This document shows positions 19,132 through 47,257 of a DNA stretch of 64,000 nucleotides, one piece after another. The stretch's first letter is position 1, and each line of letters starts with the position of its first letter. The translations under genes and the position numbers were made by a program. Under the pieces are notes generated by a model that was given only the letters and a program-made list of their open reading frames with translations, had not been told where the DNA came from and did no database searches. Origin of the DNA: Polytrichum commune (taxonomy: Eukaryota; Streptophyta; Polytrichopsida; Polytrichales; Polytrichaceae); contig OX485805.1 in the NCBI GenBank assembly GCA_950295325.1, positions 9,920,501 through 9,984,500 of the forward strand, in the 5' to 3' direction.

Positions 19132-19690
19132 GTGCTGGAAGGTGAATGACGGCTACAAGACGGACTACTAAGGGATGTTTTGCACAGGGAAACCGGGGGG
19201 AAAGTGTGGAAAAGAGCTCAAGGGAGCCACCCCAAAACCTTGAGCCCACATTCCTTGTATCACCTGTGAGATCAAGTCCGCACTGGACGGGGGTTGCGCC
19301 ATCGCCCTTTGTCACTCCTGCTCCAACAGGAAAACCCTCAACTCTGCAACTTCGTTTCATACCGAGGGTTATTATGCGGAAACCCTCTACAAGCGGACGC
19401 GTTGCTCTTCGTCCCTCATCATCTTCTCATTAGCCTCTTGCACAGTGAGGACTTTGGGTTTCACCCTCACCATGCCTGCGAACACTATAGGGGAGGATGA
19501 TCCGACCTAAGCCGTTTGGTGAGCTCCATGTCGCCCTCGTCCTCGTTGCTTGTGGCAATGGTCTTTTCCATTGCATAGTCGCCGTAGAGTTTTTTCCCCT
19601 TTAGCCTCCTCCTCTCCCTAAACGTGGCAGTCGCGTCCCTTGAGTACATATCCTTCGCATTGTCCACCGTGAGGACGGGTCACCAGCTTG

Positions 19691-26776: not shown

Positions 26777-29520
26777 TCATTCAACGTGGGTTGCTTCTTC
26801 TGCGATCCGAGCAAGGTTGTCTTTTGCAAAAGTTATGTACTTTTGAGGGATGGACACTGATCCACTATGATTTTTCCGTGGTTTCCATGCTATGAATATG
26901 GAATCTGTATCTACCCAAGATGGACCATGCTCAGAATCCACCTTCCACCGAAAGTTAGGGTTTGTATCCCAGCCTGTATAATGCCGAACAACATCTTCAT
27001 TCCGTGCTGTCGGTCGGTAGTACTCTACTTGTATTTGTCGAAAATGAGGGCTGGAAGTTACAAAATTTGGTTTGGACAAAGCTCTTGCCACCCACACTGG
27101 CTTTGCATATGTCTCATCTCCAGGACCCAAAATGAGCATATAACCTTCATGACAATCCACTGCAATGCGGAAAGATGGTGGCGGACGACTACTAGCAGGC
27201 CCCACGTAATGGTCGTCCACATCAAACTCCTCTTGAACCTCTCCATTTCCCAAAAGACTAGCCTCCGAAGCTTGTACATTGACACGTGTTTGTGGCCAAA
27301 ACCCATGCCTTAAAGTAAGGGGTGTATCTTGATGAAGGTTTGCCAAAGCGCCACGAACACGTGTCCAATATTGTATCCAACTTCCGTAACGAAGCCAACA
27401 CGATCCACCAACATCCGCTACCCTCAAACTCTCCCAATATTGTATGAAGCCTGATATGCCTTTACAAATGTCCTCCAAATTCTTCATGGGTATTGGTTTG
27501 CAAGGCTTAGGCTCTCCGTCAGGCAACATCGTCCTTCCTTCCCCATCAACACTCCATACAAGGAGACCCTCCGGCGGGCTCCAGTCTTGTGATGTGCACA
27601 ACAACTTGTATTGCATGGCGGGGACACCATCGTCACGCACGTAGAACCGAAATTGTTGTGCCTTCGTATGCCCGATCAATCGGTGAGCTCCGCTTCGAAT
27701 ATACGGTTCTATAAATGCCTTGAAGTCTGGAACCTCCTCGATCATATGGGGGATGACGGGAATGTTCTCCAAATTCATGTACGACTTCATCAACAATGGG
27801 ATTGTTGGAAAATCCTCCTCGCGCAACTTCATGCTCCACCGCCCAAAGGACGCATCAATATCATCGTGCGTATGGCCTACCAATAGAAAGGACACAAAAA
27901 CCTCCTTGAAAATGCCTTTCGCAACCAACAACGACCAATATGCAAAAACATATCTACTTTTATTGTCCTTCGCACAATTGTCCAATTGGACACGCAGAGT
28001 TGGGGGCAACTTCTTGGCAATCACATCTTCACTTGGTGGCTCCGGCAATGAGTGCACGCATACATCTCTTCCATCCAAGACCGCTTCATATAGAGGTGTT
28101 GATCCCGAGTTTTCAAATAACAATCTTGATGAATAGGACGGCGGTTTCTCCAAATCACGTAAAAGCTTTGCAAATGACCCTATCGTGTGGTTTGAATCCG
28201 CCGGATACAAATCAAGAGCATAATGAGCATATTTGACATCACCATGCCCATGTGCAATCATTCCTGCAAAGGCAACCCAATGGTTTAATATTCAACTATA
28301 ACACCAAAAAATTCACATGGTGTACATGTATGGCCCCAAGTACAAACCTAAACGCACAAATTTGTGTTTAGGTAATGCAATGCAATTGTTATCAAAATCA
28401 CCTGTAACCGAAACAGGAAGCTTAAAAAGGCCGTCCGTGGCTTTGATTCGATTTGCAAAACATGGTGAGGCTGTTTTGGCATGGTCCATCTTGTCATGGA
28501 TGATTGTAAGGACTTCCAAAGGCCTGGAGATGGACAAAGCTCTATTTGTGTAGTAATCATTACGGTGTGCCTCTTGCATGTTCACATGCTTGAAATAGTT
28601 CATTTGATGTGCGGCATAGGACTCTGTCCCCATCGTGTGTGCATCTCGAAGGCGTTTCAACTTCTCGCATTTGGAACAATGGGCAAATTTGTCGCCTCGT
28701 CTTTTTGTGATGTATTCGCTAAAGTGAGATTTTTTGATAGCACTCAGTTTCGACAACGAAATTGGGTCCAACCCGGCCTTCTCGCCAACTGCGTTTACGT
28801 CCAACAATATGTCTTTCCATTTCGTGCCTGTAGGAAGAACCTTCTCCACAACCTTTTCACCGGTTGCGAGTGTGCGTGTTTTGTGCGGCATTGCATCGGC
28901 AAGGGGGACAATGATGGTTGCCAAAGTGGCTGTTGCTTGTCTCGTTGCTTCTCTTGGTTTCTTTAAGCCCATGTTCCCATGGTGACGGGCACGGCGGCCT
29001 TCATTGGCATACGCGGCTTGTCTATAAAATTCCGCTTTCGACACACCATGAATGGTGTACCATGCCGTACAACACACGTCTATGCTCTCAAGGGTGATGA
29101 CCTTGCGACCCGCTCCGTTCACATGTATCGCCCTATGGACATCAAGTTTTTTGGTGGATCTTAGACGGAAATCTCCAAGCCACATTTCTTCACGGATGGC
29201 CTTCAATTTATCTCTTGGGAACAATTGGCAACAACGATGTACACAACAATCCTTCGTAGCAACTTCTCTAATAGACTCCTCACAGAGCAACCTTTGACGT
29301 TTACACTTATTTGCAGACGGAGTAGGACGTGTCAATGTTTCGTACTTCCGAAGGCCTTTGCGTGGCCGAATGTTTGCTTGGAGCTCCTGTTGGATTTGGA
29401 CATGTCGTCGCTCATGGTCGCGCAAGCTAACCCCCTCAATTGTCACATTCCTCAACGGCCACCTTCGCAACGAGAACCTATGAATTGGATTGACTTCCGA
29501 ATGGACGACACTTGTATGTG
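26777..29520 (-). CDS. DUF7869-like protein (probable transposon-derived)
   Basis: Two exons. Exon 1 lies between about 29520 and 28320 and contains RQRLLCEESIREVA, a Cys-rich CSKCEKLKRLRD and IHDKMDHAKTASPC. Exon 2 starts at 28263 after TTTGCAG and ends at 26777. It contains LRVQLDNCAKDNKSR and FLLVGHTHDDIDASFGRWS, the Asp/His-rich signature I associate with DUF7869-type proteins; whether this is an RNase-H-like nuclease is inference. The exon 2 C-terminus includes a region rich in aromatic residues and ends WKPRKNHSGS...EEATHVE. The total is about 890 residues with no internal stop, so it could be expressed. The true start is uncertain: the open frame continues 5' through the GAGCGGA repeat to 29740. 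The exact donor near 28340-28400 was not fixed. Confidence 0.6.
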
Positions 29521-29525
29521 AGCGT

Positions 29526-29584
<59 letters not shown>

Positions 29585-29728
29585 TTTGGAGAGCGGAGAG
29601 CGTAGAGGAAATAAAAATAGTAAACTTGTCAGACTAAAATTAGGATATTCCAAAATAGCCAAGAATATACCAAGAATATTCCAGAATTTGACAATAATAG
29701 TAAAAAAATTGGACCTATTTCCGTGGGA
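29514..29728. repeat. GAGCGGA minisatellite and conserved flank, left copy
   Basis: GTATGTGAGCGTAGAG followed by about eleven GCGGAGA-type units to about 29620, then CCTATTTCCGTGG at 29714-29726. The same block order occurs in inverted orientation at 45531-45638. It lies at the 5' end of the DUF7869-like gene. Confidence 0.85.
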
Positions 29729-30060
29729 TGTATAGGTCATAAAATAAAATAAAAACCCTGAATTTGAAATGGTCTCATTAAGTTTGGAAACCGTGAGGTG
29801 GTTGAATTATTAAAACCAATGATGACTACAAAAAAAATCAATGAAAATGGATTTTTTGAGATTGGTATAATTGAAGAATGAGTCAATCAATATACAAAGG
29901 AATCAAAATAATAAACTTGCTTGGTTTTTATTCATCACTTTTCTCTTTGTCTTATATGTGAGTCTATTCTATAGCTTGGACTTTAGCAATTATCGTTTGT
30001 GGCCGAATAGATTATAAATTGGACTCATACCCAACATAATTGTATATACAGTTGCACACA
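29729..30060. other. Intergenic AT-rich interval
   Basis: No gene recognised. It separates the minus-strand DUF7869-like gene from the plus-strand charged-protein gene and may hold the promoter of the latter. Confidence 0.4.
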
Positions 30061-30528
30061 ATGGGAGATGAGAGAGACATGTTTGCTGGATTAGGATGGG
30101 AGAAGGAAATTAGAAGTCTAGGAGATCCTCATATTCCATTTAATCCATCGCCGGAATTTGAGTTTGCTGCTGGAAATCAAAGTAGTGATGACTATGAGCT
30201 GACTCCATTTTCGCAGTCTACACAAGCATGGAGGTGGAGGGTGCAGGAGGAGCAAAAACAATATGAGAAAAAGGAAAAAAGGCAGGAAGATGTGCCGGAG
30301 AAGGATGTTGATTTAGATGAAGACAAATCGAACGAAACGGAGGAGGAGGTGAAGGTGGAAGGGGAATCTTCGAAGTCTCTTTCATTTCGCGAACGGATGA
30401 GAGGAATGACGCCGCATCATCTTCCGCTGAAGGATCGAAAGAGAGATAAGACAATTTCTTATATGGATTTGCTTCGACCGGGTCCACCTCCCTCGCAATC
30501 ATCTAAGAAGTATGCAAAACGGAAATAG
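30061..30528 (+). CDS. Hypothetical charged protein, 155 residues
   Basis: Uninterrupted frame from ATG at 30061 (MGDERDMFAGLGWEKE) to TAG at 30526-30528. I do not recognise it. The N-terminal third contains IPFNPSPEFEF; the middle is a Lys/Glu-rich, coiled-coil-like stretch (QEEQKQYEKKEKRQE followed by acidic residues); the C-terminal third is basic (SFRERMRGM, KDRKRDKT) and ends KKYAKRK. An AATAAA-like signal lies about 45 bp downstream (about 30572). It is convergent with the MULE-like gene on the other strand. Codon use and length suggest a real small gene, possibly carried within the surrounding 29.5-45.6 kb unit. Confidence 0.55.
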   Translation: MGDERDMFAGLGWEKEIRSLGDPHIPFNPSPEFEFAAGNQSSDDYELTPFSQSTQAWRWRVQEEQKQYEKKEKRQEDVPEKDVDLDEDKSNETEEEVKVEGESSKSLSFRERMRGMTPHHLPLKDRKRDKTISYMDLLRPGPPPSQSSKKYAKRK

Positions 30529-30689
30529 AGTTGATAGACATAGGAAGCATTGTAATACAAAATTTTGAAGCAAATAAAAATAATCATTGAGATTATACCT
30601 TTATTATATCAATCAATTATTGCTTCACAAGAGGTCCAGAAATGGACACATATATCATAGCCCAAAGTACTGCTAGGCTGAGATAAATC

Positions 30690-33600
30690 CTAAGAAGTAG
30701 ACTTTGTCAAAAGACCCCCTTCGAAGATGAGTTTGACTTCGTTGAAGCTAAATGTCGGGGCGTGAATGAACAAATTCACTTCCGCATCCAAATTAGAAAC
30801 CTTGATGAAAATGTAATACAAATGCTTACAATTCAAATAAGAATTTCGTTTGCGGCTGAACTTGGAAATCATATCCAAGAAAAATGCGCAGTTGCACTCT
30901 GTAAGAGAACTGACTGTCACTTGGTAGATCGGTGGTTGGGGTTCTGATTTGGACTGCAGTGTGATAATGCAACCAAATCCCGGTTGAGGGATCATAGTTA
31001 ACTTCATAACGGTACCATGCATAGCTTCAGCAGAGGCCACCATCTGCCTCTGCTTTGCCGAAGGTGCGCTACTGGATCGCCGAACAAGCTTGGACAATCT
31101 TGTCGGAGGGATCATGTCGGGGTTTTCTGGAACACGGATTCCAGACATATCCAGTGGGGGAGCAGAGTTGGTGAAGAGTTGAGTCGGTGTGATGCGCTCC
31201 TTTGGTGGGAGTTGAAAACCTGCGTTCTCAAGGGCGAAGATATCCGAGCGGGTGAGGTTGGTACCAATCTTCACGGGCCAGATTGGGGGAATAGGAGGCT
31301 TCTGGTCATGAGCAGAGAACGGCATGACCCATTTCCGACGAGGGCCCTTCACGCAACGCTCAATGTCGTCGGGGCAAAAGACAAAGTCCGTGTGCTTCAT
31401 AGATTGGAGTTTGTAATGATGCCACATACCGGTGTAGGTCGGCGCAGGGACGCTCTTATTATTAGTGACGATTCTTGCGGTGCACTTCTTCTTCGTGCCC
31501 GCATGATTAGCCCAACAAGACTTCCCAGACGTATAGGGTATGCGGGCAATATGCCAAAGAGAGACATCTACTTTGGTTTCTTGCACGGCAGTGACACGCT
31601 GGAAACCAAGTCCTGCAGGTGAAGGCACTTGAACCTCTTGTACAGAGGGGGAAGACTCCTCAATGATAGTGGGTAGTGTTTCTGGTTGAGATCGAGTGAC
31701 ACGCTTACCGGGGGGAGGACGAGAGAAGTTCACGGTATCGGGGCGGTGGGTCTCGCCATCATCACCAATTGGAGTGTCTGATCTTCGCTTCTGCGATCCA
31801 AACACCTCGGCGCCCTCAAGGTGTGGATCGCGAGTGCAAAATTCTTCCCCACCGGACATGTCAAGCAAGACCTTCTGCAACACTGTGGGGTCGCCAGTAC
31901 GCTGAGCTCGACGTTGAGCACCCCTGAGCTTTAGTTCTTCTTTGCTTGGACCATCTCCGCCAATTCCACCTTTAAGGAACTGGTAGTATGCAACAACTTG
32001 TAAGAAGGCGCGAATGTAGTCGTCAACCGTAGCCACGTATAGATCTCCACCCTTGTTGCCGGAGGCTTGAAGCCATTTGTTGTGGATGGACTCCGCAAGA
32101 TTGCACGACGGCATCTCGGCCAATTGGTCTTGGATTAAAACCTTTTCCTGATTGGAGAAATCAAGTATTAATATAAATGTACAGAGAGAGGAAATCGAAT
32201 CCAAGAAAAACCAATAATGAATTATGAAGGAGATGTACCAGTTCCATGAAACCACCCCATTGAAGGTAGCGGAAGTGCCAAAAAGCAAGCCAGAGCTGAA
32301 GATGCTTGATACCGTCCTCACTTGTACAATTCGATGACGCCCACCAAGCCTTGATAGCTAGGTACCTAGTCTCAGCCTCTTCCATAGATGACGCATTTCG
32401 ATATTGAAGGCAAAGATGTCTATGTTGGTCTTGTAACTCATGCTTTATATACGATTTCGTATGTTTTTCGAGCGATTGTTTCCAATGGAAAAAACAAGTG
32501 CGCTCACGACCCTCCATTGGAACTTTGGGATCCCCCGAACCATATACAATGCGAACAGCGTTCCAATTGGCTTGGGCACTGTCCGCCATGAAGCCTATAA
32601 AGTTTGGATGTGGGATACCGTGTCGGGCCATGACGTGGTTGAGGTTCTGCCAGAAGAGAACTTGGGCATCCTTATCCTCCGATTGGAAATCACAACATGA
32701 AATGGTCATGACCCGTTGATAAGTCCCATCGTACACATGAGCGGCCATGGTGGTCCACCCTTTGACCCGCTTCACGTGATCGGACATCATCCACGCGTTC
32801 TCCAGGTCCCCACCCGGTTGCATCCGACGAACCAAATCCACTCCACTTCCAGGACCAACCTCCGACATCTTGAAGACGAACACCTTGTCTGTATCGTCAC
32901 CTTGTCCTGGGAATTGGTTCCGTTGGACGTAGGCCCAATTGCTAACGCCTCGGAGCTTTGCGATGCCATCCATAACACCAAACCTCCGCAAATATTTGAA
33001 AGAGGTAACCTTAGAGCAAAGGTTTGGGGAATTCAACTCTCTACAGCTCTCAAAAACAGGTTCAAGCTCTTTTAAAGAGAAGAGACGGTGTGTGTCATTA
33101 TCGCCAGAAAGGAGAAACTCACCAACAATGTCCTTGCTAGCTTCAAGGACGATCTTGCTGTGGGTGGCTTGAGGCGTACGTTCAACGTGCTCCTCAAGAA
33201 GTGCATTGATACGCTTCCGACTGTCTCTGCAGTCTCCAACCTTCACTGGATGTTGATGAGAACCGAGATGAATGCAGGCTCTTTGGGATGACTCCTTCCC
33301 ATGGACGTAGAAGATTTTGGCCTCGCATAGTGCAATGCATTTGGGAGGCTCTTTACAGATCCTGCAGACAAGAGTAGATCCGGATGGCACAATGCCAGAG
33401 AGACGGAAAGGATCTTTAGTGAAACCTTCAAATTCTGTGTCATTGACCTTAGAGGTACGATGGGCGCGTTGAAGGTAATCACAACTCGGGTTTTGGCATT
33501 GGAGATGGCCAACACAGGTAGAGGAACGAAATGCAAGGCCAACGTCGTTTGTAATGTTGGTGGTTTGAGTCTTAGTCCAAACATGGCCATCATATTGCTT

Positions 33601-34026
33601 GTCCATGCCGTCCAACGACTTGGCCCTGGTTTGAGATGAAGAGACTTCTGCTGCAGGGAGGACAAATAACTAGGTGCCATCGAAACGAGGGGGAAGGTGA
33701 TTAACTTCTTGGATTTTGATTTTATCGTAATCTATTTTCTTGAGGACGTTCTTACTACCGGGCATAGAGCCAAGACGACGAAGACATTGAACAATAGTTT
33801 GAGGAGGTTTAGATGTAGGGACCGAAGGAGTTGAAGGGACAAAGCTAGATGGAGAAGGCGTTATGTAGGATGCAAAGGGAAACAAATGAGGGGAATCATG
33901 GACAGCAACCTTATACACTGGTACATCTTCACTCGAAGAATCAGACAAGTCTATAACGTTGTCTACACCAGGCTCGGTCTTGACGCTTATTACGGGGGGT
34001 GTGCTAAAGGCAACAGTGGATATCAT
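30690..34026 (-). CDS. MULE-like transposase with SWIM zinc finger, copy 2 (one premature stop)
   Basis: The first exon runs from an ATG at about 34026 to 32239, with an in-frame TAG at 33670-33672 between FDGT and LFVLPA. The intron is 32148-32238 (GTACAT...AATCAG). The last exon runs 32147-30690. Roughly 1,080 residues apart from the stop. Parts in order: VKTEP and a SUMO-interaction-like VIDLSDSSSED; a Cys/His-rich region (MDGMDKQYDGH, CQNPSCDYL, CRICKEPPKCIALC); a MULE-type core (MMSDHVKR, FMADSAQANW, ERTCFFHW); a QWGG motif at the splice site; WHIARIPYTSGKSCWA; and a SWIM finger CNCAFF...CKHLYY. Copy 1 confirms the alignment through the stop. One substitution would explain the lesion, so loss is recent or read-through is possible. 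The palindrome C array begins only about 65 bp upstream. Confidence 0.72.
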
Positions 34027-34091
34027 GTGCACATCATGTTGCTCTCGGCCTTGTCTCGTTTTGTGTAGTGCACAAGAACGAGCTAGGGCAA

Positions 34092-36050
34092 GAGGCCTCG
34101 GATCCGAGGCCTCATATTTGTGTAAGTTTGAGTATGTGAGAGGTAGGGTTTTGAGGGAGGTGAGGTTCTTGATTTCTCAACCTAATAGAATGTCAACTTT
34201 CTTGCTTTCTTGATTCCTTGCTCTCGGCCATTTCTTCTATTGTGTAGTGCATAAGTGGGAGCCATAGGAAGAGGCCTCGGATCCGAGGCCTCTTATTTGT
34301 GGGTAGGTTTGTGCTTGAAAAATCAAAATGTTATGTGCACATCAATTGCTCTCGGCCTTGTCTTGTTTTGTGTAGTGCATAAGAAGGAGCTAGGGGAAGA
34401 GGCCTCGGATCCGAGGCCTCTTATTTGTGTAAGTTTGAGTATGTGAGAGGTAGGGTTTTGAGAGAGGCGAGGTTCTTGATTTCTCAAACTAATGGAATGT
34501 CAACTTTCTTGCTTTCTTGATTCCTTGCTCTCGGCCATTTCTTCTATTGTGTAGTGCATAAGTGGGAGCCATAGGAAGAGGCCTCGGATCCGAGGCCTCT
34601 TATTTGTGGGTAGGTTTGTGCTTGAAAAATCAAAATGTTATGTGCACATCCATTGCTCTCGGCCTTGTCTTGTTTTGTGTAGTGCATAAGAAGGAGCTAG
34701 GGGAAGAGGCCTCGGATCCGAGGCCTCTTATTTGTGTAAGTTTGAGTATGTGAGAGGTAGGGTTTTGAGAGAGGTGAGGTTCTTGATTTCTCAAACTAAT
34801 GGAATGTCAACTTTCTTGCTTTCTTGATTCCTTGCTCTCGGCCATTTCTTCTATTGTGTAGTGCATAAGTGGGAGCCATAGGAAGAGGCCTCGGATCCGA
34901 GGCCTCTTATTTGTGGGTAGGTTTGTGCTTGAAAAATCAAAATGTTTTGTCCACATCGATTGCTCTCGGCCTTGTCTCGTTTTGTGTAGTGCATAAGAAG
35001 GAGCTAGGGGAAGAGGCCTCGGATCCGAGGCCTCTTATTTGTGTAAGTTTGAGTATGTGAGAGGTAGGGTTTTGAGAGAGGCGAGGTTCTTGATTTCTCA
35101 AACTAATGGAATGTCAACTTTCTTGCTTTCTTGATTCCTTGCTCTCGGCCATTTCTTCTATTGTGTAGTGCATAAGTGGGAGCCATAGGAAGAGGCCTCG
35201 GATCCGAGGCCTCTTATTTGTGGGTAGGTTTGTGCTTGAAAAATCAAAATGTTTTGTCCACATCGATTGCTCTCGGCCTTGTCTCGTTTTGTGTAGTGCA
35301 TAAGAAGGAGCTAGGGGAAGAGGCCTCGGATCCGAGGCCTCTTATTTGTGTAAGTTTGAGTATGTGAGAGGTAGGGTTTTGAGAGAGGCGAGGTTCTTGA
35401 TTTCTCAAACTAATGGAATGTCAACTTTCTTGCTTTCTTGATTCCTTGCTCTCGGCCATTTCTTCTATTGTGTAGTGCATAAGTGGGAGCCATAGGAAGA
35501 GGCCTCGGATCCGAGGCCTCTTATTTGTGGGTAGGTTTGTGCTTGAAAAATCAAAATGTTATGTGCACATCAATTGCTCTCGGCCTTGTCTTGTTTTGTG
35601 TAGTGCATAAGAAGGAGCTAGGGGAAGAGGCCTCGGATCCGAGGCCTCTTATTTGTGTAAGTTTGAGTATGTGAGAGGTAGGGTTTTGAGAGAGGCGAGG
35701 TTCTTGATTTCTCAAACTAATGGAATGTCAACTTTCTTGCTTTCTTGATTCCTTGCTCTCGGCCATTTCTTCTATTGTGTAGTGCATAAGTGGGAGCCAT
35801 AGGAAGAGGCCTCGGATCCGAGGCCTCTTATTTGTGGGTAGGTTTGTGCTTGAAAAATCAAAATGTTATGTGCACATCAATTGCTCTCGGCCTTGTCTTG
35901 TTTTGTGTAGTGCACAAGAACGAGCTAGGGCAAGAGGCCTCGGATCCGAGGCCTCATATTTGTGTAAGTTTGAGTATGTGAGAGGTAGGGTTTTGAGAGA
36001 GGCGAGGTTCTTGATTTCTCAAACTAATGGAATGTCAACTTTCTTCCATT
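34092..36050. repeat. Array C sub-region 1: 307-bp higher-order repeat
   Basis: Six to seven near-identical 307-bp units, each with two palindromes spaced about 128 and 179 bp. Unit boundaries can be read at 34255, 34562, 34869, 35176, 35483 and 35790. Units differ by only a few bases, so homogenisation is recent. The same 307-bp unit reappears at 38475 and 38782. Confidence 0.92.
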
Positions 36051-36077
36051 TTTGATTCCTTGCTCTCTGCCTTGTGC

Positions 36078-36099
36078 CCCACGGGCGAACGCCCGTGGG
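36078..36099. repeat. Palindrome family F, copy 1
   Basis: Arms CCCACGGGCG and CGCCCGTGGG around an AA centre, followed by GCCATGTAAC. Compared with the copies at 39070 and 39140 both arms carry the matching T-to-C / A-to-G change, preserving the palindrome. Confidence 0.85.
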
Positions 36100-36180
36100 C
36101 CATGTAACAAGTAACTTGGTTAGGCATGTCTTTATGAGGCACTTTGGTTGGTTCTGAGTATGTAAACTAGTTTGTGTGTG

Positions 36181-36937
36181 AGGCCTCGGATCCGAGGCCT
36201 CTCGGCCGAGGCCACTTGAGGTTTTTTGATTCAAAGTATAACTTGTATGAATGAGGCACTTTGCTTGTTTTTGAGGATGTAAACTAGTTTGTGAATGAGG
36301 CCTCGGATCCGAGGCCTCTTTTATGTGTTCCAAAACAAGTGTAGAGAAGAGGCACTTTGGTTGGTTTTGAGTATGTAAACTAGTTTGTGAATGAGGCCTC
36401 GGATCCGAGGCCTCTTTTATGTGTTCCAAAACAAGTGTACGGAAGAGGCACTTTGGTTGGTTTTGAGTATGTAAACTAGTTTGTGTGTAAGGCCTCGGAT
36501 CCGAGGCCTCTCGGCCGAGGCCACTTGAGGTTTTTTGATTCAAAGTATAACTTGTATGAATGAGGCACTTTGCTTGTTTTTGAGGATGTAAACTAGTTTG
36601 TGAATGAGGCCTCGGATCCGAGGCCTCTTTTATGTGTTCCAAAACATGTGTACGGATGAGGCACCTTGGTTTGTTTTGAGTATGTAAACTAGTTTGTGAA
36701 TGAGGCCTCGGATCCGAGGCCTCTCTTATGTGTTCCAAAACAAGTGTACGGAAGAGGCACTTTGGTTGGTTTTGAGTATGTAAACTAGTTTGTGTGTAAG
36801 GCCTCGGATCCGAGGCCTCTCGGCCGAGGCCACTTGAGGTTTTTTGATTCAACGTATAGCTTGTATGAATGAGGCACTTTGCTTGTTTTTGAGTATGTAA
36901 ACTAGTTTGAAAATGAGGCCTCGGATCCGAGGCCTCC
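36181..36937. repeat. Array C sub-region 2: 309-bp higher-order repeat with three palindromes
   Basis: Palindromes at about 36181, 36298, 36392, 36490, 36607, 36702, 36799 and 36916 give spacings of about 117, 95 and 97 bp, repeating every 309 bp. The spacer differs from sub-region 1 (TTGGTTTTGAGTATGTAAACTAG-like). Three copies are extended by a nested TCGGCCGAGGCC inverted repeat. Confidence 0.88.
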
Positions 36938-36943
36938 TTTTAG

Positions 36944-37640
36944 TGCCCTCGATCAGCAGTCCCCAGGGAGTGGCTCCCGGGACTCCGAATGTTCAAACAG
37001 GCATAACTTCCTTGATTTTTGCCCAAATGGGGCAAGTGAGGTGTCCATCGGCATCTACATTTCACGTAGATGACGATAGAGTGGTTGATTGTTAGATTCG
37101 GAGACCACACGTGGAAGATATGGAGGTCTGAAGCTGCCGGGGGGGGGGAAATGTGTTTTGTTAAGTGCATATGTAGAAGCTAGGAGAAGAGGCCTCGGAT
37201 CCGAGGCCTCTTTTATGTGTTCCAAAACTAGTGTACGGATGAGGCACTATGGTTGGTTTGGAGTACGTAAATTACTTTGTGTGTGAGCCCTCGGATCCGA
37301 GGCCTCTCAGCCGAGGCCACTTGAGGTTTTTTGATTCAACGTATAGCTTGTATGAATGAGGCACTTTGCTTGTTTTTGAGTATGTACACTAGTTTGAAAA
37401 TGAGGCCTCGGATCCGAGGCCTCCTTTTAGTGCCCTCGATCAGCAGTCCCCTGGGAGTGGCTCCCGGGACTGCGAATGTTTAAACAGGCATAACTTCCTT
37501 GATTTTTGCCCAAATGGGGCAAGTGAGGTGTCCATCGGCATCTACATTTCACGTAGATGACGATAGAGTGGTTGATTGTTAGATTTGGAGACCACACGTG
37601 GAAGATATGGAGGTCTGAAGCTGCGGGGGGGAGGGAAATG
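36944..37640. repeat. 487-bp duplication carrying reverse copies of the dispersed element
   Basis: 36944-37140 and 37432-37626 are near-identical and are reverse-complement homologues of 23700-23897. They contain a CATCTACATTTCACGTAGATG hairpin and end in poly-G (about 37140 and 37626). Between them lie family C palindromes. The element was captured in the array and then duplicated with it. Confidence 0.82.
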
Positions 37641-37676
37641 TGTTTTGTTAAGTGCATAAGTAGGAGCTTTGGGAAG

Positions 37677-38950
37677 AGGCCTCGGATCCGAGGCCTCTTT
37701 TTTGTGTCAAGGTTTGTGCTTGAAAAATCAAAATGTTAGGTTCATTTTTGAATTCTCTCGGCCATTTTCTGTAGTATGTATTTCATAAGGAGGGGCATTC
37801 GGAAGAGGCCTCGGATCCGAGGCCTCATTTTTGTGTCAAGGTATGTGCTTGAAAAATGAAAATCTTATGTTCATTTTTGAATGCTCTTGGCCTTCTTGTT
37901 TTGGGTAGTGCATAAGTAGGTACTTTGTGAAGAGGCCTCGGATCCGAGGCCTCATTTTTGTGTCAAGGTATGTGCTTGAAAAATGAAAATCTTATGTTCA
38001 TTTTTGAATGCTCTTGGCCTTCTTGTTTTGGGTAGTGCATAAGTAGGTACTTTGTGAAGAGGCCTCGGATCCGAGGCCTCATTTTTGTGTCAAGGTATGT
38101 GCTTGAAAAATGAAAATCTCATGTTCATTTTTGAATGCTCTTGGCCTTCTTGTTTTGGGTAGTGAATAAGTATGTGTTTTGGGAAGAGGCCTCGGATCCG
38201 AGGCCTCATGTTTGAATCAATTTTATTTAAGAAAAATCAAAATGTTATGTTCGTGTAAGATTACTCTCGGCCTTCTTGTTTTGGGTACTACATGAGTAGG
38301 AGGTTTGTGAAGAGGCCTCGGATCCGAGGCCTCTTGTTTGTGTAAGTTTGAGTATGTGAGAGGTAGGGTTTTGAGAGAGGCGAGGTTCTTGATTTCTCAA
38401 ACTAATGGAATGTCAACTTTCTTGCTTTCTTGATTCCTTGCTATCGGCCATTTCTTCTATTGTGTAGTGCATAAGTGGGAGCCATAGGAAAAGGCCTCGG
38501 ATCCGAGGCCTCTTATTTGTGGGTAGGTTTGTGCTTGAAAAATCAAAATGTTATGTGCACATCAATTGCTCTCGGCCTTGTCTTGTTTTGTGTAGTGCAT
38601 AAGAAGCAGCTAGGGGAAGAGGCCTCGGATCCGAGGCCTCATATTTGTGTAAGTTTGAGTATGTGAGAGGTAGGGTTTTGAGAGAGGCGAGGTTCTTGAT
38701 TTCTCAAACTAATGGAATGTCAACTTTCTTGCTTTCTTGATTCCTTGCTATCGGCCATTTCTTCTATTGTGTAGTGCATAAGTGGGAGCCATAGGAAGAG
38801 GCCTCGGATCCGAGGCCTCTTATTTGTGGGTAGGTTTGTGCTTGAAAAATCAAAATGTTATGTGCACATCAATTGCTCTCGGTCTTGTCTTGTTTTCTGT
38901 AGTGCATAAGAACCAGCTAGGGGAAGAGGCCTCGGATCCGAAGCCTCCTA
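37677..38950. repeat. Array C sub-region 3: 127-bp monomers and two more 307-bp units
   Basis: Single-palindrome monomers at about 37677, 37806, 37933, 38060, 38186 and 38311 (about 127 bp), followed by 307-bp units starting at 38475 and 38782. Confidence 0.88.
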
Positions 38951-39059
38951 TTTGTGTAAGTTTGAGTATGTGAAAGGTAGGGTTTTGAGAGAGGTGAGGT
39001 TCTTGATTTCTCAAACTAATAGAATGTCAACTTTCCTGCTTTTTTGGTTCCTTGCTCTC

Positions 39060-39600
39060 TGCCTTGTGCCCCACGGGTGAACACCCGTGGGCCATGTAAC
39101 AAGTAATTTGGTTAGGTTTTAACATCATCAAATGTGTGCCCCACGGGTGAACACCCGTGGGCCATGTAACAGGTAACTTGGGTAGGATTTAGCATCATCA
39201 CGGGGAGATGTCTCCATGTCAAATATTTTTAAAAATTATGATTTTTTTTCTCTATATTCATAACTATTGATTATATCTTTTGTATATTTTTTTGAAATTT
39301 TTTGTCATCTTCATTTTTCTAGTAATTGTTTTAGTTGAATTCTGCGTCATTCTAGGTAGAAATGGTATGTTTTCTAGAAAAATATGGTCATCAAATTTGG
39401 TCATGATATTTTAGTCCGTAATAGATATCATGTATATCTACGTCCCAAAAAAATTTGAGAAAATTTTGACCCATTTTGGTGATGCAACTTGGCAATGGAG
39501 TGACCTCCCCTGGAACATCATCAAATGTGAACCTCACGGGTGAACACCCGTGAGCCATGTAACAAGTAAATTGGTTAGGTTTTAAAATCATCAAGGAGGG
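39060..39600. repeat. Break in array C with three family F palindromes
   Basis: Family F copies at 39070-39091 and 39140-39161 have arms CCCACGGGTG / CACCCGTGGG with an AA centre. The copy at 39533-39554 has CTCACGGGTG / CACCCGTGAG, again with matching changes in both arms. Each is followed by GCCATGTAACANGTAA. 39200-39500 is AT-rich without features. Confidence 0.85.
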
Positions 39601-40268
39601 GCATTTGGAAGAGGCCTCGGATCCGAGGCCTCATTTTTGAGTCAGGTTGTGTGCTTGAAAAATGAAAATGTTAGGTTCATTTTTTAATTCTCTCGGCCAT
39701 TTTCTGTAGTATGTATTTCATAAGGAGGGGCATTCGGAAGAGGCCTCGGATCCGAGGCCTCATTTTTGTGTCAAGGTATGTGCATGAAAAGTTAAAATGT
39801 TATGTTCATTTTTGAATGCGCTTGGCCCTCTTGTTTTGGGTAGTGCATAAGTAGGTACTTTGTGAAGAGGCCTCGGATCCGAGGCCTCATTTTTGTGTCA
39901 AGGTATGTGCTTGAAAAATGAAAATCTTATGTTCATTTTCGAATCCTCTCGGCCTTCTTGTTTTGGGAAGTGAATAAGTATGTGTTTTGGGAAGAGGCCT
40001 CGGATCCGAGGCCTCATGTTTGTGTCAATTTTATGCTAGAAAAATCAAAATGTTATGTTCGTGTAAGATTGCTCTCGGCCTTCTTGTTTTGGGTACTACA
40101 TGAGTAGGAGGTTTGTGAAGAGGCCTCGGATCCGAGGCCTCATTTTGGAGACAATGTATGTGCTTGAAAAGTCAAACTGCTATGTTCACATAAGATTTCT
40201 CTCGGCCTTTTTCTTTTGGGTAGTGCATAAGGAGGAGGTAGGAAAAGAGGCCTCGGATCCGAGGCCTC

Positions 40269-40440
40269 TCATTCGTAGGTAGGTTAGTGCTAGAGTTGAG
40301 CACTTGACTTAGCATTCGGCCATTTCCATTTGTAGTTTGCTCTCGGCCTTGTATTGTTTTTGTGAGGATTTGTTTCTTTATAGTTACGAAGTTATTGACT
40401 TTTCTTTGTGAAATTCTCAATTTCTCCATGTTCTTAGGAT
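40269..40440 (+). promoter_or_regulatory. Probable promoter/5' UTR of the ParB/methyltransferase-like gene
   Basis: The 172 bp between the last family C palindrome and the ATG. It carries the array's usual CTCTCGGCCTTGT spacer phrase, then array-unrelated AT-rich sequence. No clear TATA box was seen. The palindromes are therefore the nearest upstream repeated element and may act in regulation; this is inference. Confidence 0.35.
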
Positions 40441-43400
40441 ATGGACTCTTCACAGGTTGCGCAATCGCAACCCCAATCTGGAGAGGATGTTGTTCTTGCG
40501 GCCCCCGCGGTTGAAGTTGAAGCTGTGCAGGTTGAGAGTCTCAATTCGCAGGGCCCATTACAAGTAGAGGTGAGTTGGATAGTTGTTGAATAATTTGTTA
40601 AGCAAGTTTTTTGAGTTCTAGCTTTCTAAGCATGGTTTTATTGTTTGTGTTTTTGTTAGGCTCTCGCAATGAGCGAAGATGCCGTTCAAGCAGTTGCCGA
40701 CACGGATCCCGTGGTGTGTGAGCTTGAGCTTCGGAAATCACAAAAGGAGGACTCCATTGGTGTTATCCAACGCCTTCGGATTAAGCCAACATGTAAGTCC
40801 CGCTTATCCATTCCTTTATGCCGCTTGAGAGCCCTCTCTCTCGTCCGTCCTATCAGTGAGGTTGAGGTGCAGCGCTTGGAATGTGAATTTGTAATGGGAT
40901 ACCGAGAGGGTGATCGGGTTCTTTACGTGTCTTCTTTCAACGACGTTCCCGTGGACCTCCCCATTCCCCCTGGCATTATGGCCTCTTGGAGCCCTCTCTG
41001 GCAAGAGGCCTCCGCAGAATTTGACGCCAAGCTCAAGGAGGATCCGGATCTTGCACATTTCGCCGGGAAGATGTTCTTCGTCTGGGAAGGCAATCATCGT
41101 CTCACCGCTTGGTGGAGACACATCAATAACCACCACGCCGATGACAAGAGTTGGCATATCTCGGTGGATTGCATTGTTGTTGACCCTAGAGGATACACCG
41201 GTATATTCCTCAATGCCATGAGCGACATTAATTGGTAAGCTCACTCATTTTTTTCATTCATTTTTCATTTTTGTTTCAATTCTTTTCCATTCTTTTCAGC
41301 TCACGTTCCTCACATATTTTTTCTCAGGTCAACCGAGCATGATTATGTCAAGGCAAACATTCCGGCCAAGCTCCTTCGAATCCGCACTTTTGGGAGGTTA
41401 GAGTTGTCCACCTTCAAGGATCTTATATCGCCATCTGACTACAAAGCATGCGAGAAGATAAAGGAGAGTCGCCCAACTTGGTACACCTTGACCGCGGATG
41501 TGTTCGTTAAGTTTCTTTACAAGGTATGGTTTTATGCATTCAATCATTTAGAGCTTCCAACATAGATAATTTCCATACCGATTATATGAACTCACAAGGT
41601 CATTTCTTGCAGAGAGACATTTCGGCTCAAGCAGACCTTGCAGTGAGGCATTACCGTGAGACCACACCCGTTGCGGAGAGGTCGGCCACTGAGATTTGGA
41701 ATGTTATGACCAAGGCCCAGGAGAGGATAATCAAAAGTATTCGGGCCCGTTCTTTTGAGAAGTACATATCCGTTGCACACCCTGACAATGGAGAGGATTT
41801 CTTTCATGAGGTACTCTTTTGAACTCAAATCACTCTTGAACGCAATTCATCCAAATCACTCTTCAACTCTATTACTCTTTTGAACTCAAATCATTTTTAT
41901 TTTGTGCACAGATTGACCGTCATTTTAATGAGTTCTCTTCGACGGACATGACAATTAAAAAATTGCAAAAAATTGTCACATGCCCGGTCGAAGCTTCGTT
42001 CAAAGCTAAGTGGCTTCACTGGTGGAACGCCCCCCTTCGTGAAAGGTTAGATAACAAGTTCCCCGTCGACAAGCCTATGAGGGAGAGGGCTTTGGACGAC
42101 TGGCTACACAAGGCGTCCTTCTGGGCTCAAGTAAATCCATTCCTCGGCCTTCTTCATTTTCATTTTCCTCTATTCCATTTATTTCATATCTAATCATCTC
42201 CTTCTCTGCAGTTGGAGAAAGAAGTCGCGGTTGAAATTGAGACCTTAGAGGAGAGCCTCTCCGTCGACATTGATTGGGACGCATCAGAAACTATCTTGCG
42301 CCCTCGTGAGTACGTTGATCATTGGCGGATTGTCCTTTGGGACAAGGCCTTCAAGCCTTATCTCGGCGATAAGCCTGACATCGCATTTGCCAAAGGTGAT
42401 AATCTCTTGGAGTTCGAGGAGGGGGCTCTCGCTATCAAGCGTGTAGCCTATCGGTAATACATCTATCCTCCACTTTGCACCTCTCCTTAATGTCATTTCT
42501 TGCTCGTTTTGTTGGTTTTCTTACATTCTTGTTTTGTCATGTAGGTATATCATGAGAGAATTGGTTGTGAAGAATGCATTGGCCTCATCTTCCTTGCCGG
42601 ACTACCTCTCGGACTGGGTGAATATTTTTTCTAGCCTCTGCGTGTATACGACCGCGCAAACAAACAAGTTTTCCGAATTGCACTTGCAGGGTGGTGGATG
42701 GTACTTGGATTGTGCTGCAGGATTTGTCCCCGGGGAAGAGAAGGCTTTGTTTGCTAGCCTTGTGGGTAGTGCTCTGGATAATAACATTGTTACCTTGGAG
42801 GACCCTGACATTGTTGAGCTTCCCCCTCCTCCTCCTAAGGCACCAAGGAGAAAGGGCAGAGCAAAGAAGACCGCCACTCAAGCATCTACCCAAATTCTCA
42901 CTCGGTCTGCTTCTAAGACCCCGGTTGAGCCACCCACCCTTCCACACAGTCCATCTATCGCTCCCTCCGTTGCTCCCTCTCTTGCCCCTTCTGTTACTCC
43001 ATCTGCATTTCATCCACAATCTCTTGCCACTCCATCTCATAGTGGCACTTCTCTCCTCTCTTTGCCTCGCAAGAGGAAGGCCGCTCTCTTGGATACCAGT
43101 GCCACCTCTTCGGATGCCACTAACACGCTTACCCTCATCGAAAATGTGGACATGGTTCAACTAATGCTGGATTCCGAGGTTGCCGGAGGTCCCCTCCCCG
43201 CATATACCCGCATCCAAGAGTTCATTGCCAAGGTTTGTATACTTGCCTTCGTCAATTCTCAATTTTTTTTCCTTTGCTTTGTTTATTTCTTTCCTTCTTA
43301 TTTTCTCATGAAGTTTCAATTGCAGGTTGGGGCAGGTCGTTCCCGTGTGAACACCTCGACTACAACTCACAAGGGCCTCGATTTGCTCTTCGCCGACATT

Positions 43401-44641
43401 CCCGAAAATTTGCCGGTGCCGAACATCTCCACCGATGTTCCTGCTTGGAACAAGCTCCATGAATCATACTATGAGTGTCTTTTTGCATTTGCGAAATCTA
43501 ACCTCTATGATCATGGTGTCCTTGTTCTTGCCCATTGTGCGAGTGCCAGTGTTTTTAGGAGTATTTTCGATTGGGCACACACTTATGACTTCTACGTCGC
43601 GGAAGATTGGTTTGGAATGAATGATTTAGACCTCCAATCTCCCGTTGTTCCCTCTGGAGTGGTAAGCAAGTCTCCCTCTCTTCCCCTTCCGTATTGCTTA
43701 TCATTTCAATTTCAATTCAATTTCAATTCCATTTCATTTCAATTCAATTTCATTTTCATTGTTGCAGACTCGGAAGTTCAACATCAAAGTTCTTGTTCGT
43801 GTTAACTCCGTTCTTAGAGTGCGGGAGGAGGCCATACAAGAGTATGGTTACAACCTCCAACGAGATGGATGGTTGAATACCTTCACCGATGAGAAGAGCC
43901 AGACGATGCGCAGTGATGGGGTACCTTGGCGAGGTACCCATGAGAAGCATCCTGTTTTTTTTTCCATCCTTCTCGCTACTCTCACCGACAAGAATGATGT
44001 TATTATGGACTGGCAGTGTGGTATAGGTACGCCTTCTTTTTCAACTTCATCCTTACTTTGAATTTTCCATTATTTTTCCTTGACTAGTTTTCATACTAAC
44101 ATTTTACCTCTCTTTGCTTTAGGTGGTTCGATTACAGCATGTCGCTCCCTTGAGCGGCATATTGTGGCCCTTGAGAGTGACCCCGTCATTTTCAATTCAC
44201 TCCTACTCCCCATGCGCGATCCCCAGCCTGCGCGTATATCTCGCTCAGTTGCCGCACCGTCTACATCTATCTTTGATCCTCCTCAAAAGATGACCAAGAG
44301 GGCATTCGGATTTCTTTGTGCGTAAGTTTGCTTTCTATATTTTGCCATGTTTGCTTTGATTTCAAATTCTCATTTTCTAGTGTCATCATGTTTCTAATCC
44401 TTTTGCTTGGGTGTTTAGAGAGCCAGCGGAGGTCGCAGTCATTCGTCGAGACATGTTTTCAAGTCCTCCGAAGCCGTTTGAGCTTCCCCCGTATGCTAGT
44501 GCAATGGCGGATTGTTTTGCGAAGGCGGAGTCCCCATCTCCTCCTCGCGTTCGTCATTTCTCGCGTGGAACACGAAATCTTTTCTTGTTAGAAGCAAATG
44601 AGGGTGAGGAGAGTGATAGGGAATGTTCTCCAAGCCCTTAG
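40441..44641 (+). CDS. ParB-like / DNA-amino-methyltransferase-like fusion protein, 11 exons
   Basis: Exons 40441-40569, 40660-41234, 41328-41523, 41613-41810, 41912-42130, 42212-42453, 42545-43232, 43326-43661, 43768-44026, 44123-44321 and 44419-44641. All introns are GT-AG, phases agree, and the sum is 3,264 nt (1,087 residues) with no internal stop. N-terminal region: IPLCRLRALS (about 94-103) and WEGNHRLTAWW (about 185-195) resemble the ParB/sulfiredoxin fold with its G-x-H-R motif. Middle: a Pro/Ser linker (about 610-715) with basic patches PRRKGRAKK and LPRKRK, possible nuclear signals. C-terminal: GLDLLFADIPEN (about 767-777) aligns with motif IV, HPVFFSILLATL (922-933) with motif X, VIMDWQCGIGG (939-949) with motif I and VALESD (962-967) with motif II. 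That is the order of beta-class N6A/N4C methyltransferases. Motif IV reads DIPE where D/N/S-PP-Y/F/W is expected, so activity is uncertain. Prokaryotic and phage ParB-methylase fusions are known; the assignment here rests on motifs only. Confidence 0.8.
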
Positions 44642-44689
44642 TTTATCATTTTGGTTTTGGAGATTATAACTCCGTTTGTTGTTGTTATC

Positions 44690-44702
44690 CGGCTTTAATA
44701 AA
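44690..44702 (+). terminator. Polyadenylation signal
   Basis: TTTAATAAAAG about 50 bp after the stop codon of the ParB/methyltransferase-like gene. Confidence 0.55.
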
Positions 44703-45530
44703 AGTTGTGTGTTGGTTTTATTTTTGATATCCGGCGCAAGTTTCATTCTTTCTTTCCATTATTTCATATTCATATGTCAACCCGCATTGCATTCTTTATT
44801 TTTTCTTCATCGTTCGGATCTCTTAACTTCTAGTCACAAAACAATCTAGCTCTCGGCTCTTAGTGTGAGATCTTAGTTATAGGGGGACCATACTTTCTAT
44901 TAGTGTGGATGGTTTATTTTATGGTTGTGCACACTAATCACATTGGCCGTCTTCCAATCCCAATTGCTATATAGCAATTGGAAGTTTTGTTTGGCACGCG
45001 AACATAACCTCGTCAAACTTTTTAAATTGAAATTCATGTTGTTCTCAAAGAGCCGGCACGTCACCTCAAAAATTTCCAAGAGGATTCTAAGGTTGGACTT
45101 GGGGGATTTGTCTTTGAGGTCTTTGGCTAAGCTAAGGACTGAATTGGAAGGCTGTTATGGTGCGACGGAGTTTTATGGCATGTTCTTTGGATCATTTTAC
45201 CCATATTGGACATGCCCGGCAGATAGGGTGTAGATGGCCCTAAACTAGAGTATATAGTTATTTTAACTAACTACCCATTTTTGTAAGTCTTGAGGTTGGC
45301 TACATTTTGTTGACCAATAAAATATTTTGTGTATGGTATTTTGATTTCAATTTGGTGACGTCAGCCCTAATTTAATATGATACATTTGAAAACATATACT
45401 ATAAGATGTTTGATAACAAATGCAATCTTCCACGCCTATAGGATCCGTTGGTTTCTCAAACAATTCTGGGTTATTATGTCCACGGGAATGGGGGTACCTT
45501 TCCAAATATAGAATTCAAACTATCTCTAAT
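44703..45530. other. Interval without recognised genes
   Basis: Short open frames only (for example 44925-45233 on the plus strand), with no recognisable motif. Confidence 0.45.
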
Positions 45531-45638
45531 TCCACGGAAATAGGCACTGCTTCTCCTAAAATTACCCAACAAAATCTAAATTTTCCGCTCTCCAATCTCC
45601 GCTCTCCGCTCTCTGCTCTCCGCTCTACGCTCACATAC
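45531..45638. repeat. GAGCGGA minisatellite and flank, right copy (inverted)
   Basis: Reads CCACGGAAATAGG ... CTCCAATCTCCGCTCTCCG ... CTCTACGCTCACATAC, the inverted counterpart of 29514-29728. It has fewer repeat units than the left copy. Confidence 0.82.
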
Positions 45639-46003
45639 TTGAGTTTCCCACTTCCGAATGTACGAGTGATTCTAATATAACAACTCCAACGTCCTCGGTG
45701 CCAAGGGGGTGTTCATCAATGCAATCTTGTGGATGTGTGTTACGACAAATACCCTCCGCCACAGTAACTCCACTGTCATTAACAAGTACCACATCCAAAT
45801 TCACCCATGAAGCTCGTGAAAGCCCCGCACATTCCACAATGGGGCAAAAAGGGTCAGATGGCGAAGGACTCCCCAAATGACCTTCATCTGCACTGTCATC
45901 AAAACTATCCTCCCCGACAATGTCTAGCTCATCCCCAGACAGAGATTGGGTGCTGCCCATGTCTTCAGAGAAGGAATCCCCTCTTCCACCAACTCCCTCC
46001 ATT
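45639..46003 (-). CDS. Acidic hypothetical protein, last exon
   Basis: Minus-strand frame after a TGTGTAG acceptor at about 46004, with an ATG close by (MEGVGGRGDSF). Acidic N-terminal half (SGDELDIVGEDSFDDSADE), then CPIVECAGLSR, WVNLDVVLVNDSG and an acidic end; the frame closes in the GTATGTGAGCG flank of the inverted repeat at about 45631. I do not recognise it. Upstream on the same strand is the family A array, which may sit in its intron or promoter, as in the lysine-rich gene. Could also be a non-coding open frame. Confidence 0.35.
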
Positions 46004-46202
46004 ACGCCTACACACATGCACATGAAACCTCAACAAACATGGACACAACGTAAGGGTCCAAAAGAATCAAATATTGGAAAATGCAAAACATCACGATGAA
46101 TGGGGACACTGAGGATCAAGACATTTGCAACACAAATGCAATGTGAGCTCCCAATACTGTGCGCCAGTCCACAAAATGTTCCACAAAATATTTTGGGTGG
46201 GA

Positions 46203-47257
46203 GTTTGGGTCGGCCGACCTAAACCCTGTGGCACCAGGGATTGAGGGCCATCCCCACCTTGCCCGTGGGATAGGGTCGGGTTCCGGTCGACCGACTCAAA
46301 CCTTGTACAATGATGGGTTGAGGGCCATTTAGAATTCCATCACACTGTGGGGAAAACTTTGGGTCGACCGACCCAATCCTTGTCATGGTCAACTACAACC
46401 GCCGAAACTGGGGAAGGGGTTTGGGTCGACCGACCCAAACTTTCACAGGGTAAACCCACCCACACTCAGAAGGGGTTTGGGTCGGTCGACCCAAACTTTC
46501 ACAGGGTAAGTCCACCCACACCGGGAAAGGGTTTGGGTCGGTCGACCCAAACTTTCGCAGTGTAAATCCACCCACACTGGGATGAGGTTTGGGTCGCTCG
46601 ACCCAAACATTACATATGATGGGATAAGGTTCCTACTCTGTCCGTCCAAACCTTCTGAGTACCTTGGGTAAGGGCCATTAACAATTCGTTCACGATGTGC
46701 GAAAAAGTTTGGGTCGACCGACCCAAACCTTCTAAAAGGTTTTACGATAAACGCCCACAGTGGGGTAGGGGTTTGGGTCGACCGACCCAAACCTCACAAG
46801 GGTCAGAGTAGACCCCCCCCCAACACTAGTGAAGGGGTTTGGGTCGACCGACCCAAACCTCACAAGGGTCAGAGTAGACCCCCCCCCCAACACTAGTGAA
46901 GGGGTTTGGGTCGACCGACCCAAACCTCACAAGGGTCAGAGTAGACCCCCCCCCAACACTAGTGAAGGGGTTTGGGTCGACCGACCCAAACCTCACAAGG
47001 GTCAGAGTAGACCCCCCCCCCAACACTAGTGAAGGGGTTTGGGTCGACCGACCCAAACCTCACAAGGGTCAGAGTAGACCCCCCCCCCAACACTAGTGAA
47101 GGGGTTTGGGTCGACCGACCCAAACCTCACAAGGATCAGAGTAGACCCCCCCCCCCAACACTAGTGAAGGGGTTTGGGTCGACCGACCCAAACCTCACAA
47201 GGGTGAGACTAGAACCCGCCCACACTACTAGAGGGGTTTGGGTCGACCGACCCAAAC
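46203..47257. repeat. Palindrome family A tandem array
   Basis: About sixteen copies. From 46768 on, a 67-bp monomer repeats seven or eight times: family A palindrome (centre AC, in many copies palindromic to 24 bp as GGTTTGGG/CCCAAACC), CTCACAAGGGTCAGAGTAGA, a poly-C run of 8-10, and CAACACTAGTGAAGGG. The left part has more diverse spacers and centres (AC, GT, GC and others). Long frames on both strands encoding FGSTDPN/VWVDRPKP repeats are artefacts. Confidence 0.93.

Follow-up and report, generated by a model that had tools for sequence, protein, structure and literature searches.

A predicted ParB-fold protein and its candidate palindromic sites in a MULE-like transposon of Polytrichum commune

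Introduction

What could a ParB-like gene be doing in a eukaryotic genome directly beside some 40 copies of one palindrome? The question arises from a 64-kb stretch of Polytrichum commune DNA (assembly GCA_950295325.1, contig OX485805.1), here called the window (C3:9920501-9984500 in the 408-Mb assembly of 64 contigs over which the genome searches were run; unprefixed positions count from the window's first letter). For this locus an initial annotation had proposed a cognate protein-site pair, possibly marking or silencing palindrome-bearing DNA. The adjacency of gene and array is real, but the two do not form a stand-alone locus: both lie inside one 16,146-bp DNA transposon (29504-45649) resembling a Mutator-like element (MULE), in which a transposase-like gene adjoins the array at its opposite end. 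The probability that the transposon-encoded protein, with its predicted ParB fold, acts on the array at its own promoter and counters silencing, much as VANC does in VANDAL transposons, is put at roughly 0.5.

The transposon and its central array

The element is bounded by an 11-bp target site duplication, whose sequence occurs on the plus strand of the window only at 29493 and 45650 (Table 1), and by terminal inverted repeats identical at 52 of 55 positions (29514-29568 against 45584-45638 reversed). Excision of 29504-45649 together with one copy of the duplication fuses the flanks into an open frame of 326 aa on the minus strand, which holds as far as the joined flanks of 600 and 420 nt reach; frame 26777-28261 of the interrupted gene region matches DUF7869 (Pfam, E 9.2e-41). 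A second copy, R1 (C1:2246925-2261912; 14,988 bp), shares both termini and is flanked by an 11-bp duplication of its own, TCCTTATATAG. Both duplications lie in the 8-11 bp range given for MULEs in PMC6446971. Terminal inverted repeats are a feature of many, not all, MULEs. From the central array the transposase-like gene runs leftward and the ParB-like gene rightward, and the order transposase, array, ParB-like gene recurs in R1 and in a further copy, R2. The transposase start codon, as read from its frame, lies at about 34026, with 66 bp between it and the array, which begins at 34092; the window copy has one in-frame stop (33670-33672), and R1 has an unbroken frame of 766 codons at the matching place.

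A palindrome search of the window returned 39 perfect palindromes with the core CCTCGGATCCGAGG, spanning 34092-40269; five first-order Markov sequences of 64 kb each, serving as control, gave 3-8 palindromes of any kind with arms of at least 7. The full 22-mer (family C), GAGGCCTCGGATCCGAGGCCTC, is present in 35 exact copies, five with one mismatch and four overlapping partial sites with 4-5 mismatches, and no site with up to five mismatches lies outside the array on the plus strand of the window (the motif being its own complement). Two figures of the initial annotation are hereby confirmed, namely about 40 palindromes of one kind (40 sites with at most one mismatch) and a gap of 172 bp between array and gene, the last 22-mer ending at 40268 and the ATG standing at 40441. 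The tandem repeat units measure 307 bp, 309 bp (composed of 96 and 117) and 127 bp. A second motif, CTCTCGGCC, precedes 20 of the 40 sites by 48-50 nt, start to start, and is absent from the rest of the window's plus strand.

Within the array the sites are conserved far above their spacers. Ten flank classes with identical sites show a gapped flank identity of 0.768, as against 0.759 for shuffled flanks, while in ungapped, in-register comparison the flanks reach 0.42-0.47 and the sites 0.96. CpG is kept at 87 of 88 site positions (two per site in 44 sites, partial ones included), and the spacers have an observed-to-expected CpG ratio of 0.45. Such conservation is consistent with sites under lasting occupancy or selection, and agrees poorly with a plain satellite.

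Paralogues and their palindromes

In the genome the exact 22-mer occurs 1903 times, and the same pattern read backwards not once. Among the first 50 sites listed, 49 lie in arrays beside a ParB-like gene (29 in R1, two in R2, 18 in R4) and one lies beside R3 (C1:13834501-13844500), a distant relative in which the methylase-like part alone was matched (L020, C1:13840532-13841570); some 1 kb downstream of that part lie two family C sites. R4 has array and ParB-like gene, with two stops in exon 2, and no transposase match within the 30 kb fetched. Exon 2 has 150 scored relatives among 1281 candidates, 34 of them with a stop inside it; 55, the window's included, are at least 90% identical, which suggests recent spread, 13 are 71-86% and 82 are 59-67% identical.

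The 30 closest paralogues (L024-L053, L024 being the window's own) have 5-8 family C sites within 1.5 kb upstream of exon 2 at up to three mismatches, and none downstream, but being near-copies they prove little. The comparison of clades was made on 18 stretches, namely the window, R2 and 16 paralogues (L054-L069) picked from the 150 for spread of identity, not randomly, with 1.2 kb upstream read and sites scored at up to four mismatches; R3 and the near copies R1, R4 and L025-L053 stand outside this set. Site I (GAGGCCTCGGnnCCGAGGCCTC) is present in all seven stretches with an exon-2 identity of at least 71%, site II (ACCCTCTCGGnnCCGAGAGGGT) in eight of the nine with 60-67%, L060 having none, and site III (AATCCCACGGATCCGTGGGATT) once each in both stretches with 59%, which are 99% identical to each other. 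The best match to site I has one mismatch in R2's stretch, L062 and L069, which reflects a one-sided variant: in the 78-80% sub-clade (L019, L062, L069) GAGGCCTCGGATCCGAGGGCTC or its complement runs throughout the arrays, accounting for 16 of 18 sites in R2. Site II is exact in L057, L058, L066, L067 and L068, with a best match of one mismatch in L054 and L056 and of two in L055. None of the 18 stretches holds two of the three sites, the window's additionally holding one site of family D (Table 1), and shuffles of the first ten stretches yielded none of them. Protein clade and palindrome are associated: in 17 of the 18 upstream stretches, that of the window among them, the paralogue proved to have a palindrome family of its own nearby. 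This was the check proposed at the outset, and its result upholds the idea of a cognate pair, in which the protein would bind the site. A stratification count of 1 in 875,160 is not used as a probability, the copies being related.

The three sites follow a common plan of 10-bp half-sites and a 2-bp centre, with CGG-nn-CCG innermost; what distinguishes them is the outer 7 bp. A GATC centre is found in site I, site III and the site II of L068; in L057, L058, L066 and L067 the centre of site II is AA or TT, without GATC. Spacers were compared between stretches as the best local match per pair. Those of site I fall into two groups (window, L061, L063, L065; and R2, L062, L069), the matches between them measuring 22-31 bp, except for L061 with 120 bp at 71%. 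Those of site II fall into about four (L054/L056; L055; L057/L066/L067; L058/L068), and here the matches measure 23-86 bp, apart from a single one of 208 bp at 70%.

The ParB-like protein

The gene is intact, as had been noted initially, in that the predicted 11-exon model stays open over 1087 codons. Its exons recur in the other copies, all of them in R4, all but exon 8 in R1 (7 and 9 partially), and exons 2-8 in the stretch fetched of R2. The label 'ParB-like' had rested on one motif, GNHR, which is present in 63 of 71 aligned exon-2 rows, and was later supported by structure prediction: the model of exon 2, calculated by AlphaFold2 (AF2) with an alignment, has the ParB/sulfiredoxin (Srx) N-terminal fold of ParB, and its fold matches include the transcriptional repressor KorB (8qa8, 8qa9). 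A single-sequence AF2 model, with a mean confidence score (pLDDT) of 35.6, was discarded. Exon 2 is under purifying selection, with nonsynonymous and synonymous divergences (dN and dS) from R2 of 0.107 and 0.991. No Pfam family matched the whole protein, and no PDB sequence the exon-2 profile, at E<=10; PF20188, with two of 71 exon-2 members matched (best 0.19), and other families with few members were treated as chance. A full-length protein search returned no relatives, probably because those in the database are single exons outside the search's length range, and exon-wise searches gave 230 and 102. In IMG/VR neither a confirmed exon-2 relative nor an exact 22-mer was found.

No site with up to three mismatches to the letters used for the 16-bp parS lies in 29504-45649, and no ParA was noticed in the element's frame list, no ParA profile having been run on the element. 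In Caulobacter ParB, which loads and spreads, E102 is a residue of the cytidine triphosphate (CTP) pocket, according to PMC8367383; compared by motif, it would correspond to the N of GNHR.

Exons 8-10 contain a region resembling beta-class DNA methyltransferases. Of the initial term 'DNA-methyltransferase-like' the methyltransferase-like part is supported, although the sequence matches are weak (DpnA E 0.0075, the best; CcrM E 0.024; N6_N4_Mtase E 0.11). At the place of the FxGxG-type motif, which in such methyltransferases binds S-adenosylmethionine (AdoMet), dwqcgiggs is aligned to dpfmgsgtt of DpnA. The catalytic motif (N/S/D)PP(Y/F/W) is present in 0 of 102 relatives, about a third of which are fragments without that stretch; at the DPPY place none of 66 readable rows has an aromatic residue, 44 have DIPE or DVPE, and R3, at about 40% identity, likewise has DIPE. 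The loss of DPPY makes methyl marking unlikely, and DNA methylation by this protein finds no support.

Table 1. Features of the transposon and of the gene region into which it is inserted (window positions)
Feature	Position	Strand	Basis or remark
DUF7869 gene region hit by insertion, 3' part	26777..29492	-	5' part 45661-46008
Left target site duplication, 11 bp, ACTTCCGAATG	29493..29503	.	two plus-strand occurrences in window
Left terminus and inverted terminal repeat, GAGCGGA heptamers	29504..29568	+	self-comparison of window
Accessory frame, 155 aa, without convincing family	30061..30528	+	terminal 26-28 residues alone matched at R1 and R2
MULE-like transposase gene	30690..34026	-	frames 30690-32357, 32161-33669, 33670-34176; transcribed away from array
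Second recurring motif CTCTCGGCC, 24 copies	34042..40348 (outer limits)	+	window motif search
Array of 40 sites GAGGCCTCGGATCCGAGGCCTC (<=1 mismatch)	34092..40268	.	tandem repeat units
Family D, another 22-bp palindrome, CCCACGGG(C/T)GAAC(G/A)CCCGTGGG, 4 copies	36078..39554	.	starts 36078, 39070, 39140, 39533
ParB-like gene, 11 exons, 1087 aa	40441..44640	+	gene model, ten GT-AG introns, no stop
ParB-like gene, exons 1-6	40441-40569, 40660-41234, 41328-41523, 41613-41810, 41912-42130, 42212-42453	+	gene model
ParB-like gene, exons 7-11	42545-43232, 43326-43661, 43768-44026, 44123-44321, 44419-44640	+	gene model
Exon 2, predicted ParB/sulfiredoxin-fold domain with GNHR motif	40660..41234	+	aligned AF2 model, fold matches, alignment
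Beta-class DNA-methyltransferase-like region, exons 8-10, DIPE replacing DPPY	43326..44321	+	profile matches, alignment
Right terminus and inverted terminal repeat	45584..45649	-	self-comparison of window
Right target site duplication copy	45650..45660	.	ACTTCCGAATG at 45650

Proposed mode of action and its alternatives

That the protein recognises the element which encodes it is suggested by the position of the array between divergent promoters, the symmetry of its sites, the predicted fold and the way in which the site differs by clade. It can be envisaged that a MULE-like transposon encodes not only its transposase but also a ParB-fold protein whose methyltransferase-like domain is catalytically altered; this protein would bind the 22-bp palindromes (two 10-bp half-sites around 2 bp) as a dimer and probably spread or cluster along the array. 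Its occupancy would protect both divergent promoters from host silencing and keep them open, as it would sister copies in trans, and protein clades and palindromes would diverge together, such that each transposon family acts on its own kind only. Of these steps, binding of the palindromes by the protein appears probable, and its action on the element's own promoters is favoured with a little less assurance; granted both, anti-silencing rather than repression would be an even bet. Since the gene is part of the transposon, gene and array are inherited together, and action on the element itself becomes more likely than the marking or silencing of palindrome-bearing DNA suggested initially.

Several points weigh against this proposal. 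Linkage in one element can by itself produce an association of clade and site, and the sample of paralogues is small and non-random; the transposase could be the binder; and families A, B, D and E, of like geometry, occur in the window although it contains no other ParB-like gene. Along these lines it is conceivable, if rather doubtful, that the transposase or a host factor binds the palindromes, while the ParB-like gene has another job and co-travels in the element. Similar arrays do stand beside genes of other elements in the window (family A at the DUF7869 gene, family B at a second transposase) where no second ParB-like gene is present, and transposase gene and array adjoin here as well (34026 and 34092). 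On the other hand, the array lies mid-element and not at the termini, where MULE transposases act, exon 2 is conserved, and the best-known members of its superfamily use palindromic sites. R4 also speaks against binding by the transposase, gene and array being present there with no transposase match in the 30 kb fetched, but its exon 2 is interrupted twice.

A bolder proposal, for which the odds are somewhat poorer still, is that of a first eukaryotic ParB-parS-like system, in which a ParB-type, nucleotide-dependent clamp encoded by a nuclear transposon would load at its own palindromes, spread over the element, and insulate it from silencing or gather sister copies. Protein and site would then have diversified together into three or more specificities, to which families A, B, D and E might add others.

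The same pair with the opposite sign is unlikely; here the protein would bind the array to repress its family or limit how far it transposes, as a form of copy control, or would label the element for silencing. The evidence for binding would be the same, and a repressor, KorB, is among the fold matches; yet the 55 of 150 relatives at 90% identity or more suggest recent spread, and marking by methylation is improbable in the absence of DPPY.

Far less credible is a neutral tandem repeat of satellite type, in which the palindrome would have arisen by accident or be maintained through replication errors at hairpins. Tandem duplication of the units is evident, and some in-register flank likeness remains, as given above, but the sites persist while gapped flank identity falls to the shuffled level, CpG is kept in sites and depleted in spacers, the best local match between spacer groups is mostly 22-86 bp, and from clade to clade the site changes while the 10+2+10 plan and the approximate place stay the same.

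The idea of a working DNA methyltransferase that acts on the palindrome, like bacterial ParB-methylase proteins, can practically be set aside: the order of ParB fold and methylase-like region, the local similarity to DpnA and CcrM, and the GATC centres of site I, site III and L068's site II would suit it, but the aromatic residue is missing from every readable row, R3 has DIPE too, and four site II stretches are without GATC.

Other elements of the window

A second MULE-like transposase (450-2222 and 4347-7934), split over several frames and with its left part outside the window, has a palindrome array, ACCCTGTGCGTTAACGCACAGGGT (family B, extending to 24-32 bp), upstream of it. The part at 4347-7934 shares 66-70% DNA identity, in pieces, with the transposase of the element described here, and CxxH and SWIM-like CxC...CxH patterns can be discerned by eye in both. 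No MULE Pfam model matched the transposases at E<=10, and a SWIM match (E 0.015, below the cut-off) was confined to the second.

Immediately upstream of the 5' part of the minus-strand DUF7869 gene, which starts at about 46008, palindromes GTTTGGGTCGnnCGACCCAAAC (family A) form a tandem array (46203-47258), such that this gene, too, starts beside 10+2+10 palindromes. R1 adjoins a frame that by eye resembles the DUF7869 frame (KDNK...EVHVSY; L017, L018, C1:2262277-2263581), and its neighbourhood hints that the MULE-like element may prefer insertion into DUF7869-type elements. Inverted copies of another element (17833-19252 and 60323-61711, 77% identical) carry GTTTGGGTCGnnCGACCCAAAC-type palindromes in corresponding positions, some of them within open frames, and an array of a further palindrome, TTTACGAACGnnCGTTCGTAAA, with 17 sites at up to six mismatches (63063-64000), runs off the right end of the window. 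In family D two paired, symmetry-keeping changes occur among the four copies, one of which has two additional changes, and families A, B, C and E have 3, 0, 0 and 1 paired changes; because changes in the latter four are mostly one-sided, general symmetry-keeping substitution is not claimed, and only family D hints at compensation.

One frame of 2086 codons (51701-57961) stands between direct repeats (50280-51639 and 58989-60348) that are 99.4% identical over 1360 bp; judged by its motifs, this element looks like a Ty3/gypsy retrotransposon. A short run of CCTAAAC units at 49136-49169 resembles the plant-type telomere repeat.

Comparison with known systems

By analogy, the closest working model for the ParB-like gene would be VANC, in the literature found the only case worked out in which a transposon encodes sequence-specific factors that have tandem target arrays of their own. 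VANC, encoded by VANDAL MULEs of Arabidopsis, binds short motifs within the tandem repeats of the family to which it belongs and brings about a loss of methylation (PMC5735166), and the motifs of VANC6 differ from those of a related VANC (PMC5735166; also PMC10398659). The likeness accordingly extends to an extra MULE gene, to short motifs in non-coding DNA of the element that is repeated in tandem, and to a motif that differs between related families (PMC5735166, PMC10398659). The window protein differs in having no Pfam domain, hence neither DUF1985 nor DUF287, and in combining a predicted ParB fold with a methylase-like part; its sites are 22-bp palindromes instead of motifs of 8-9 bp, in one central array between divergent genes. 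Where VANC binds its own motif and removes methylation, the window's element offers a clade-site association, with anti-silencing as a proposed function.

MULEs with extra open reading frames (ORFs; PMD, SET, DUF, antisense MutB) are described in PMC6446971, the second gene being sometimes antisense; the likeness lies in the second gene, and the word methyltransferase is absent from the paper's text, in which ParB was not searched for. Among the matches listed from open PMC papers, subscription papers and preprints lying outside the search, no ParB-like protein in a eukaryotic transposon appeared. A protein of Mycobacterium phage Vincenzo, named DNA methylase in BFVD, matched the predicted ParB fold (Foldseek E 0.011, probability 0.99). 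The comparison covers the fold match and the name; with 1087 aa as against 479, the window protein is more than twice as long, and it is transposon-borne, is encoded with ten introns and has lost DPPY.

With ParB, Noc and KorB the window protein would share the ParB/Srx fold and clustered palindromic sites near the gene; in contrast to these, its gene resides in a nuclear transposon without a parS-like site, and the protein has a long unrelated middle part. ParB-type loading and spreading is, by this analogy, a possible means of action. If the proposal is true, an unrelated fold has reached a VANC-like arrangement in a different genome, where relatives number at least 150 and sites differ by clade, and the nucleus has found a use for the ParB fold with palindromic sites. 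An arms race over transposon silencing would become testable by simple swap experiments, and the three sites built on one half-site plan provide material for working out a recognition code.
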